A program made the position numbers and the translations under genes. The notes under the pieces are model-generated. The model was not told where the DNA came from. It was given only the letters and a program-made list of their open reading frames with translations, and did not search any database. A DNA stretch of 64,000 nucleotides. It comes from Chloroflexaceae bacterium. Lineage in GTDB: Bacteria > Chloroflexota > Chloroflexia > Chloroflexales > Chloroflexaceae. Below, piece after piece: positions 4,067-39,173 of the stretch (its first letter is position 1; every line of letters starts with the position of its first letter). Where the stretch lies: NCBI GenBank assembly GCA_025057155.1, contig JANWYD010000007.1, positions 186,001-250,000 of the forward strand, given 5' to 3'.

Positions 4067-4894
4067 ATGAGCGATTTCGACTGGCTGCGGCAGCGCCTGG
4101 AGAGCGCCTTCGGGCAGTTGCTCTCCCAGGCCCCTGAACTGGCGCGGATCTGGGGGCAGTGGTTCGAGGCCCTGGAGGGTGAACCCGTGCCCCTGGCGCG
4201 CCTGGAGAAGCCGCTACGGGAAGTGCGGCTGGCCCTGGTGACGACGGGGGGCGTGCATCTGCGCGCGCAAACGCCGTTTGACATGCGCGACTCGCGCGGC
4301 GATCCCACTTACCGGGCCATTCCCGCCGATACGCCTGTGAACGAGCTGGCGATCACCCACGACTACTACGACCACACCGACGCCGAGCGCGATCTGAACA
4401 TCCTCTTTCCGCTGGAACTCGCGCGCGAACTGGCGGCCCGCGGCGCCATCGGCGGTCTGGGAACCTGTTACGGCTTCATGGGGCACATCGAGCCGCCCCA
4501 CGTCGAGACGCTGATCCGCCAGACCGCGCCCGAGGTGGCGGGCATGCTGCGGCAGGAGAAGATTGATGCGGTGCTGCTAACCCCTGCCTGAGGGCTGTGC
4601 AATCAGTCCGTGGGACTGATCGCCAGGGTCATCGAGAGTTTTGGCATCCCAACCGTGTGCATTATCGCTCTGCGCGAGATCGCCGAGCGGGTGCGCCCGC
4701 CGCGCGCCATTCATCTGAAGTGGCCCTTTGGTCATCCCCTGGGAGAGCCGGGTAACCGGGCGCAGCAACTCTGCGTGCTGTACATTGCGCTCCAGGCTCT
4801 CTATACCGTGCGCGAGTCGGGGACGATCTATGATCCAGGCTGGCGTTGGCGCCGCGAGGAGTATGAAGAACCCGATCGCTGGGATCTGCCTTGA
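4067..4894 (+). CDS. GrdB/PrdB-like reductase family protein, candidate selenoprotein (UGA = Sec175)
   Basis: One frame runs from ATG 4067 through an in-frame TGA at 4589-4591 to a stop at 4894, giving 275 residues if the TGA is read as selenocysteine. The product belongs to the glycine/sarcosine/betaine reductase selenoprotein B-like family. The sequence around the TGA reads LLTPA-U-GLCNQSVG, so Sec would be the first residue of a UxxC redox pair with Cys178; homologues usually have CxxC here. The 100 residues after the TGA stay in frame and family-like (IPTVCIIALREIAERV, WPFGHPLGEPGN). A hairpin of bacterial SECIS type starts 10 bases after the TGA, and a tRNA-Sec gene lies at 30412-30505. 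The reaction is unknown; a thiol/selenol reductase role is inferred. The alternative is a nonsense mutation. Confidence 0.85.
4589..4591 (+). other. In-frame UGA, predicted selenocysteine codon
   Basis: TGA lies between GCC (Ala) and GGG (Gly), at the position where the family has the first Cys of CxxC. The frame continues open for 101 codons. Confidence 0.8.
4602..4620 (+). promoter_or_regulatory. bSECIS-like stem-loop
   Basis: ATCAGTCC-GTG-GGACTGAT forms a perfect 8-bp stem with a 3-base loop that begins with G. The loop starts at base +19 after the UGA, the same distance as the GGU loop of the E. coli fdhF SECIS and within the accepted 16-37 range for bacterial SECIS elements. Confidence 0.75.
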
Positions 4895-30254: not shown

Positions 30255-30324
30255 GAGACCTGACAGGGAGTCGTTGGAGCGCCCGGCGTGAATGGGGATC
30301 ATCCACGCCTCCCTGTCAGGTCTC
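30255..30324. other. Long stem-loop downstream of tRNA-Sec
   Basis: GAGACCTGACAGGGAG (30255-30270) and its perfect inverted copy (30309-30324) enclose a second stem, GGCGTG / CACGCC. The whole can fold as a 70-base structure. It lies 88 bases beyond the 3' end of the tRNA-Sec gene on the same strand. It could be a 3' structure of that transcript or a degenerate mobile repeat; no open reading frame is present. Confidence 0.45.
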
Positions 30325-30411: not shown

Positions 30412-30505
30412 CGAGAGCGCGTGGGAGTCGAACCCACCGGCGAGGCTCGTCACCCCGCCCACAGGTTTTGAAGACCAGGGCGGCCACCGGGCCACGTCCG
30501 CTCTC
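30412..30505 (-). tRNA. selC: tRNA-Sec (anticodon UCA)
   Basis: 94 bases without CCA. It has the selenocysteine tRNA hallmarks: anticodon loop CTTCAAA with TCA; a 6-bp D-stem with 4-base loop (GTGGCC-CGGT-GGCCGC); a long variable arm with 7-bp stem (GGCGGGG / CCTCGCC); T-arm GTGGG-TTCGACT-CCCAC; and an extended acceptor stem of eight bases per side (GAGAGCGG / GCGCTCTC). Two pairs are non-canonical: G-G at acceptor position 8 and T-T in the anticodon stem. CCA is not encoded. This tRNA supports the UGA reading at 4589. The other sel genes are outside the window. Confidence 0.88.
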
Positions 30506-30913
30506 ATGACGATTCTAGCCCTCCCTTACGACCTCTGTCAAACAGGCCCGTTCATGCTCCAGGGCGGTCGCAACGTCTCTGGGGCCGGCCCCGAACCCCG
30601 GGTGTTTCGCTGGTTTTGGCGGCTACGCCGCCCTGATCCCCTCGGAGGCGGACTTTGCATCAATTCTGAAGGTTGCAGAGTAAGGTTCCGGCGCACCTGG
30701 CGACGTTGCAACAGCCCCGGCGCATTCCTGGTGTCGCGTCCCCGCAACTCCACGCCTGGTCCGGAGTGCCCTGAAGGTGCAGACCACGTAGCAGGCAGAT
30801 CCGATATCCTACCGCTACTCCAGGTAGCGGACTTGATTCTTCACCTGGCCAGGCGCCGTGCTACACTTAAAGATCGGCCCTGTAGCGCGCACGTAGCGAA
30901 GGGAGGTGATCAT
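30506..30913. promoter_or_regulatory. Upstream region of the Kelch-type gene
   Basis: 408 bp without a supported gene, also the upstream side of tRNA-Sec. On the plus strand TTCACC (30840-30845) and TACACT (30862-30867), spaced 16, are a weak promoter candidate ahead of the Kelch-like gene. No structured leader was recognised. Confidence 0.35.
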
Positions 30914-32251
30914 ATGAACCGCTACGTGATCCTTGCGCTCGTGTTGTGTCTGGCGCTCGCCGGAGGCGCGGCCAGCCTGGGCCAGCCGCCGGCCTCGGCG
31001 CTCGCCGGTCCGGTGGTGCTGCAAGTGACCCCGTCGCAGGTGTACAACACCACCGCCAGTGAAGTGACCATCAAGGGCTCTGGCTTTGTCGCCACCCCGG
31101 TCGTTACGTTGACCCTGGGCGATCAGGCCCCGATCGTGCTCAGCCAGGTCAGGTTTGTTGACTATGCCACGCTCGTCGTGACGATACCAGCCGAGACCCC
31201 CGAAGGCGCGTATGTTGTCACCGTGTATAACCCTGATGGCTCAAGCCACCACACCGGCCCTGCCGGCTTGACTGTCGTGCGTCCTGGTGATCAGCGCATG
31301 CGCGCCTGGATGCCAACCACGCCCCTGCCGGGCGGCCGTTTCGCTTTCGCCGCCGTTGCCACAGCAGGAAACGTGTATGTAATTGGCGGACTCCTCGGAG
31401 GCGGTTCGGATCAAACCGTTGTGCAGGCGAGGATCATGCCCGATGGCCGGCTTGGACCCTGGCAGGACGCCAGCCAGTTGAACCGCTCTCGCGGCGGAAT
31501 TGTCGGCGTCGTTAGTGGAGAATATATTTATGTAATTGGAGGCGCCATTGGCGCCGGGTTGCCCACCGAACGCACTATCGAGCGCGCCAGGGTGGCGCCG
31601 GATGGCGCGCTTGGCCCGTGGGAGGTGATCGGCGAATTGCCCGAGGTGCGCTACGGGGCTGCCGGGGCCGTGGTTGGCGAGTATCTGTTTATCATGGATG
31701 GCAGAACCGTAGTGGGTGATGTCTCCATGGATACGATACGCGCCCGCATCGCCCCCGACGGAACGCCGGGTCCCTGGGTGGAAGTGGCGCCAACCCGGGG
31801 GCGCAGTGTGGCCGCGGCCAGCAGTGGTCAGGCCATCTTCGTTCTCAACGATGATGGTTCAATCGAACGCAGCCGAATGAATGCCGACGGCAGCCTGGAA
31901 CCGTGGACCACCGTCGCGCCGACCAGGGTCAACCATCGCGGCGGAGCGCTGGCCGTGTTCCAGGGGAGTCTGGTTGTGCTTGGCGGCTCTGGCGGCGCCC
32001 CTCCCAACGTGTATAGCCTGACTAATGTTGAGCGCGCCGACATCAGGAGCGATGGCTCGCTCGGCCCCTGGACGTCTGCGCCATCGCTATTGACGAGCCG
32101 GTCGGCCTTCAGCGTAGCAACATCGAACCAGTGGCTCTATGCCATCGGGAGTACGCCGAGCTATCCCTCTATCCCCGGCGAGCAGCCAGTGGAGTTCAGC
32201 GGTTCGGCGCTGCCGCCTCGACTCTACATGCCGCTGATCGGGCGCGAATAG
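30914..32251 (+). CDS. Secreted IPT/TIG and Kelch-like repeat protein
   Basis: 445 residues. A signal peptide (MNRYVILALVLCLALAGGAASLG) ends near residue 30. An IPT/TIG immunoglobulin-like domain follows (about 38-120: VTPSQVYNTTASEVTIKGSGF), then about six Kelch-like blades with the spacing of YVIGG motifs (NVYVIGGLLGG, YIYVIGGAIG, LVVLGGSGG) and a repeated PDG-LGPW element in each (MPDGRLGPW, APDGALGPW, APDGTPGPW, RSDGSLGPW). The C-terminus LYMPLIGRE resembles the short tail seen on many exported Chloroflexota proteins. Binding partner unknown. GGGAGGTGAT precedes the ATG. Confidence 0.88.
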   Translation: MNRYVILALVLCLALAGGAASLGQPPASALAGPVVLQVTPSQVYNTTASEVTIKGSGFVATPVVTLTLGDQAPIVLSQVRFVDYATLVVTIPAETPEGAYVVTVYNPDGSSHHTGPAGLTVVRPGDQRMRAWMPTTPLPGGRFAFAAVATAGNVYVIGGLLGGGSDQTVVQARIMPDGRLGPWQDASQLNRSRGGIVGVVSGEYIYVIGGAIGAGLPTERTIERARVAPDGALGPWEVIGELPEVRYGAAGAVVGEYLFIMDGRTVVGDVSMDTIRARIAPDGTPGPWVEVAPTRGRSVAAASSGQAIFVLNDDGSIERSRMNADGSLEPWTTVAPTRVNHRGGALAVFQGSLVVLGGSGGAPPNVYSLTNVERADIRSDGSLGPWTSAPSLLTSRSAFSVATSNQWLYAIGSTPSYPSIPGEQPVEFSGSALPPRLYMPLIGRE

Positions 32252-38788: not shown

Positions 38789-38864
38789 TGGTGGAGCGAA
38801 GGGGATTCGAACCCCTGACCTCCTGCTTGCAAAGCAGGCGCTCTCCCAACTAAGCTACCGCCCC
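38789..38864 (-). tRNA. tRNA-Ala (anticodon UGC)
   Basis: A full cloverleaf is readable on the minus strand. The anticodon loop is CTTTGCAAG with TGC; the T-arm has GGTTCGAATCC; the acceptor stem carries the G3-U70 pair that identifies alanine. CCA is encoded at the 3' end (38789-38791). Confidence 0.95.
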
Positions 38865-39096
38865 GAGTCTCAGACTAGTCTTGGCGCCAGGCAACCCCAA
38901 TAGTTCCTCCACGGTTTTACAACCAGTTTGTGGAGGTGTAGAGGTGTGGAGATGCGAAGGTGAGGGCCAGACCATCAAGCTCTTCTGCGACGTGCCTGAG
39001 GTCATTCACGATCAATGGTTAGCCGGCGCCCTGATCAGCGAAAAGGCAAAAGGTAAAAGTGTGCGTCACCTTTCACCCTTTGCCTTTGCCAGACCC
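38865..39096. other. Spacer between tRNA-Ile and tRNA-Ala with TGGAGGTG repeat
   Basis: 232 bp without a gene. It holds a TGGAGGTG tandem tract at about 38932-38955. The inverted sequence AAAAGGCAAAAGGTAAAAGTG / CACCTTTCACCCTTTGCC-type lies around 39040-39090 and may form a hairpin. A promoter for tRNA-Ala could be here. Confidence 0.4.

Positions 39097-39173
<77 letters not shown>

Follow-up and report, generated by a model that had tools for sequence, protein, structure and literature searches.

We identified a bacterial tRNA-Sec (selC) gene at positions 30412–30505, on the minus strand, of the window, by which we mean the whole stretch of 64,000 nucleotides that was analysed. We believe that the data are very likely best explained by a functional, single-copy gene of the 8/5 type, with a sigma70 promoter that would start transcription at the first base of the tRNA (G1) or no more than one base away. 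The tRNA-Sec itself belongs to a known family, and what merits bench work is the leaderless arrangement.

ARAGORN names 30412–30505 as tRNA-SeC (tca), and within the window the Rfam model RF01852 matches it with 70.1 bits (E 2.7e-12), which is above the curated cut-off of 47 bits. The original prediction had called a tRNA-Sec (UCA) at exactly these coordinates without stating the strand. G1 is at 30505, the discriminator G73 is at 30412 and the UCA anticodon is at 30471–30469. Read 5' to 3', the tRNA is GAGAGCGG AC GTGGCC CGGT GGCCGC CCTGGT CTTCAAA ACCTGT (23-nt variable arm) GTGGG TTCGACT CCCAC GCGCTCTC G. All of the parts that had been claimed for it are present in the sequence: the 8-nt acceptor strands, the 6-bp D-stem with its 4-nt loop, the long variable arm and the UCA. 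Together with the 5-bp T-stem, the acceptor strands give an acceptor and T helix of 13 layers (8+5), of which 12 are standard pairs and the eighth acceptor layer is a G.G mismatch. The gene does not encode CCA, as the final G is followed by ATG. A free-energy fold recovers the cloverleaf arms, but with just three pairs in the anticodon stem. When we searched the genome with RF01852, this was the sole real tRNA-Sec; the one other match that passes the cut-off, with 49.7 bits, belongs to a tRNA-Ser(GCT), which we rejected as a second copy. A tRNA-Sec was also found in 103 of 150 relatives. Taking these features together with the partner genes described below, we infer that 30412–30505 is a real and functional member of the bacterial tRNA-Sec family.

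Two mismatches had been noted in the gene, a G-G at acceptor position 8 and a T-T in the anticodon stem, and they had been described as either tolerated or an early sign of decay. Both are real. The first is G 30498 opposite G 30420, the second is U28.U42 (30477 opposite 30463), and we found a third non-canonical pair, C26.U44 (C 30479 and T 30461), which closes the six-layer anticodon stem. If the gene were in early decay, two true mismatches plus the C.U that closes the anticodon stem would mark a loss of constraint. However, when selC is compared among sister genomes, as had been proposed, the mismatches prove to be fixed throughout the genus and also occur outside it. In 100 parsed relatives from the class, the eighth acceptor layer is G.G in 70, C-G in 21, G-C in 4, G.A in 3 and T.C in 2, so purine-purine pairs are tolerated there. 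G.G is one step from C-G as well as from G-C. Each of the 5 genomes of the genus has U28.U42, as does one further genome, G016. Among 400 sampled Chloroflexota genomes, the same arm occurs with U.U in 20 and with U-A in 16, and because both forms are found inside each of the families f1, f33 and f35, the change occurred more than once. Scanning 84,980 species for CTGGTCTTCAAAACCTGT gave at least 119 loci, and at least 108 of them parse as tRNA-Sec with the identical U.U arm. The named ones come from Chloroflexota, Planctomycetota, Bacillota, Acidobacteriota and Armatimonadota, a list of five phyla that describes the spread of U28.U42 and not its frequency, since the scan selected that very sequence.

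The tRNA is also far better conserved than its surroundings, with 96–99% identity across the genus and G016 against 38–49% over the aligned bases of the 250-nt flanks. In addition, the gene retains an intact promoter, and its genome has selA, selB, selD and a conserved UGA, as we describe below. According to a review, no Sec enzyme binds the anticodon arm (PMC7609411), and tolerance of a U.U pair there fits the absence of such contact. On this comparison of sequences, the mismatches are features of the lineage and not decay, so of the two options originally offered only tolerance stands, and we regard a gene in early decay as very improbable. The non-canonical pairs would retain the layers of the 8+5 helix and relax pairing at sites where mispairing is tolerated in the lineage. 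These mismatches are no ground for calling the tRNA-Sec gene a pseudogene.

The original prediction also held that the Sec machinery must lie elsewhere if the gene is functional, and called for a genome search. The host genome is a Chloroflexaceae genome of 5.13 Mb that is 100% complete, and a profile search of it located all three genes outside the window, with one match each above the cut-off: selA with 567 bits (contig C2), selB with 324 bits (C19) and selD with 371 bits (C31). The genome therefore has selA, selB and selD alongside the tRNA-Sec. The selD gene (L018) has an in-frame TGA within MADCAGUASK, at the usual Cys/Sec site, which makes SelD itself a selenoprotein. The candidate hairpin for selD folds no better than shuffles (z 0.26). 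We also looked for a formate dehydrogenase selenoprotein, and the FDH-like matches had no in-frame TGA.

Within the window, a PrdB/GrdB-like selenoprotein gene lies at 4067–4894 on the plus strand, with 275 aa including Sec and a TGA stop at 4892 (TIGR04483, PF07355 and relatives). TIGR04483, the model for D-proline reductase PrdB, matches with 160.3 bits, which is below its equivalog cut-off of 300, and so the product is a related selenoprotein that we do not call PrdB. Its in-frame UGA is at 4589–4591, in the motif U-G-L-C. Of 46 related genomes, 23 have matches to this protein. All matches that cover the site have an in-frame TGA, and the two without it are fragments that end short. The TGA is at the same residue in 23 sequences, although these were chosen by a search that required a TGA, and the unbiased count is the one for all matches that span the site. 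Behind the UGA is a bSECIS-like hairpin at 4602–4620 (plus strand), with an 8-bp stem, a GUG loop and a fold z of -2.7; the UGA is 18 nt from the hairpin loop. A UGA followed by an 8-bp hairpin at this distance fits the general bSECIS pattern. The codons AAT CAG TCC GTG GGA CTG ATC 3' of the UGA show little synonymous variation in the 23 sequences, whereas downstream codons for invariant Ala, Arg and Gly vary freely in the same set. Over 19 distinct sequences, the synonymous sites of the hairpin are near-invariant. We take the hairpin and the conservation of synonymous sites as strong evidence that Sec insertion at 4589 is under selection, which bears out the earlier claim that the tRNA supports Sec insertion at this codon. 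A paralogous GrdB/PrdB-like branch (L263, L264, L267 and L268), with the motif U-P-L-C, has a hairpin of almost identical sequence after the UGA.

Look-alikes with a UCA anticodon do exist (PMC7609411), so the gene might in principle be an allo-tRNA or a selC-type tRNA-Cys that inserts no Sec. Against this, the discriminator is G73, where selC-type tRNA-Cys has U73, the molecule has the 8/5 fold with the bacterial 6/4 D-arm, and the genome has a complete Sec system together with UGA-containing genes. We consider such a look-alike extremely improbable, and we regard it as settled that UGA is read as selenocysteine in this lineage.

Upstream of the tRNA-Sec there is a single sigma70-type site on the minus strand. 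It consists of a -35 hexamer TTGACA (30536–30541) and a -10 hexamer TAGAAT (30512–30517), which jointly match at 11 of 12 positions and are separated by a spacer of 18 nt. In shuffles of the region, 0.1 such sites are expected. The -10 box and G1 are 6 nt apart. In relatives, the box is 6–7 nt from base 1 of the tRNA-Sec in 30/33 cases in the family, 5/5 in f2, 7/11 in f4 and 6/8 in f19, and in f7 the gap is 5–6 nt in 5/5. Between and around the hexamers the sequences of the relatives are unrelated, with a mean spacer identity of 29%, and the position of the box is kept where the flanks have diverged to 43–49% identity. Such a promoter, at a score of at least 9, is found in 45 of 100 class-level relatives, compared with a mean of 0.03 and a maximum of 1 in shuffles. 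In the Chloroflexota families f10, f11 and f12, we found no such promoter near the tRNA-Sec, and the signal of a close promoter was likewise not found at the same-arm loci of Planctomycetota, Bacillota and Armatimonadota. In three Acidobacteriota loci (L131, L141 and L194), GCTATATT precedes base 1 of the tRNA-Sec by about 7 nt, the box being TATATT, and there is no -35 box. The close spacing may extend to this phylum as well.

A gap of 6–7 nt makes G1 the seventh or eighth base after the -10 box, which is where starts usually fall. The gap of 6 nt here, and of 6–7 nt in relatives, thus puts the start at base 1, and we predict that transcription of the tRNA-Sec probably begins at G1 (30505) or within one base of it. 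Bacterial RNA polymerase usually starts at a purine that follows a pyrimidine. Base 1 is G, and the base before it is a pyrimidine in 84 of 84 cases, although this adds little because a pyrimidine at -1 is also common in control tRNAs (63 of 76).

There is another way to read the distance. The gene could be a functional tRNA-Sec with a short leader of 1–8 nt that is matured by RNase P, in which case the close promoter would reflect a general taste for short leaders. Short leaders are indeed the rule among the tRNA genes here, and the genome has a partial match to RNase P RNA, whose 47 bits fall short of the family cut-off. As far as this match shows, the close promoter does not come from a loss of RNase P. 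In the control tRNAs, which came from this genome and from the retrieved contigs, however, the gap is mostly 11–14 nt and is 5–8 nt in 3 of 51, while tRNA-Sec makes a separate peak at 6–7 nt in several families, at a gap that places G1 at the usual start distance. The difference between tRNA-Sec and control gaps has a Fisher p of 2e-21, or 3e-13 with class-only controls, and both values are too small since the relatives are not independent. We therefore judge a short leader to be possible, though rather unlikely. Two of the three control tRNAs in the 5–8 nt range are both tRNA-Lys genes of the same genome (L317, TTT, and L313, CTT), with gaps of 6 and 7 nt, so tRNA-Sec may not be the only tRNA here that is transcribed without a leader.

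We think it likely that in these Chloroflexota (this order and the Anaerolineae-like f19) tRNA-Sec is transcribed without a leader and has a 5'-triphosphate with no use of RNase P, while most other tRNAs are leadered. In such a scheme, the sigma70 promoter would set RNA polymerase at G1, and the primary transcript would already have the mature 5' end and a triphosphate, the latter being deduced from the start. RNase P would not be needed for the 5' end, and what would follow is 3' trimming and CCA addition. The enzymatic steps after this are taken from the known bacterial Sec pathway: SerRS would serylate the tRNA-Sec, SelA would convert the seryl-tRNA using selenophosphate from SelD, and SelB would deliver the product to UGA codons that have a hairpin behind them. 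The UGA codons served here would be the ones in the PrdB-like gene and in selD.

The RNA has the same 8+5 layers, 6-bp/4-nt D-arm, UCA anticodon, variable arm and G73 as the bacterial 8/5 tRNA-Sec of RF01852, such as that of E. coli selC and A. aeolicus. It differs from this type in the G.G eighth layer, U28.U42, C26.U44, the lack of an encoded CCA and the promoter 6 nt from base 1; in E. coli, RNase P cuts the tRNA-Sec from its leader. The 12-bp (7/5) bacterial tRNA-Sec variants likewise have one weakened acceptor layer, but they lack one base pair and one base, whereas here both strands keep 8 nt and 13 layers remain (PMC5330540).

For the arrangement of the gene, two systems outside bacteria can be compared. 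The eukaryotic tRNA[Ser]Sec has a 5'-triphosphate. Its gene has upstream promoter elements (PMC8362101), and it resembles the present gene in having a promoter upstream and a start at base 1, which here is predicted. The likeness is one of arrangement only, as the eukaryotic gene uses Pol III and has a 9/4 fold, compared with a bacterial sigma70 promoter and an 8/5 fold, and the promoters are not homologous. In Nanoarchaeum equitans, transcripts of tRNAs also begin at base 1, as we predict for this tRNA-Sec, and all tRNAs there are leaderless since RNase P is absent (PMC10941002), unlike here, where most tRNAs are leadered and there is a match to RNase P RNA. The literature that we searched, with most subscription papers outside its scope, contained no report of a leaderless tRNA-Sec in bacteria. 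If our reading of the promoter is true, there is a second domain of life in which tRNA-Sec bypasses RNase P, and these bacteria came to a leaderless tRNA-Sec in parallel with eukaryotes but independently of them. It would then be a testable question why tRNA-Sec tends to arise with a mature 5' end. One possible reason is that RNase P may cleave an 8-bp acceptor stem inefficiently or with a shift of one base; another is that the triphosphate may matter for SelA, for SelB or for stability.

We also made some observations on the surroundings of the gene. An inverted repeat with 20-nt arms (95%) lies at 30255–30324, some 90 nt beyond the 3' end of the tRNA-Sec gene; it has no T run and may be a terminator or a repeat element. 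The usual place of a tRNA-Ala/tRNA-Ile pair is in rRNA operons; in the window, tRNA-Ala(TGC) and tRNA-Ile(GAT) are adjacent on the minus strand at 38789–39173, and no rRNA gene was detected. On the plus strand, 30506–32251 is an ORF that encodes TIG and Kelch domains. Its first ATG adjoins the tRNA-Sec and overlaps the promoter of the tRNA gene, and the true start of this ORF is probably further downstream.
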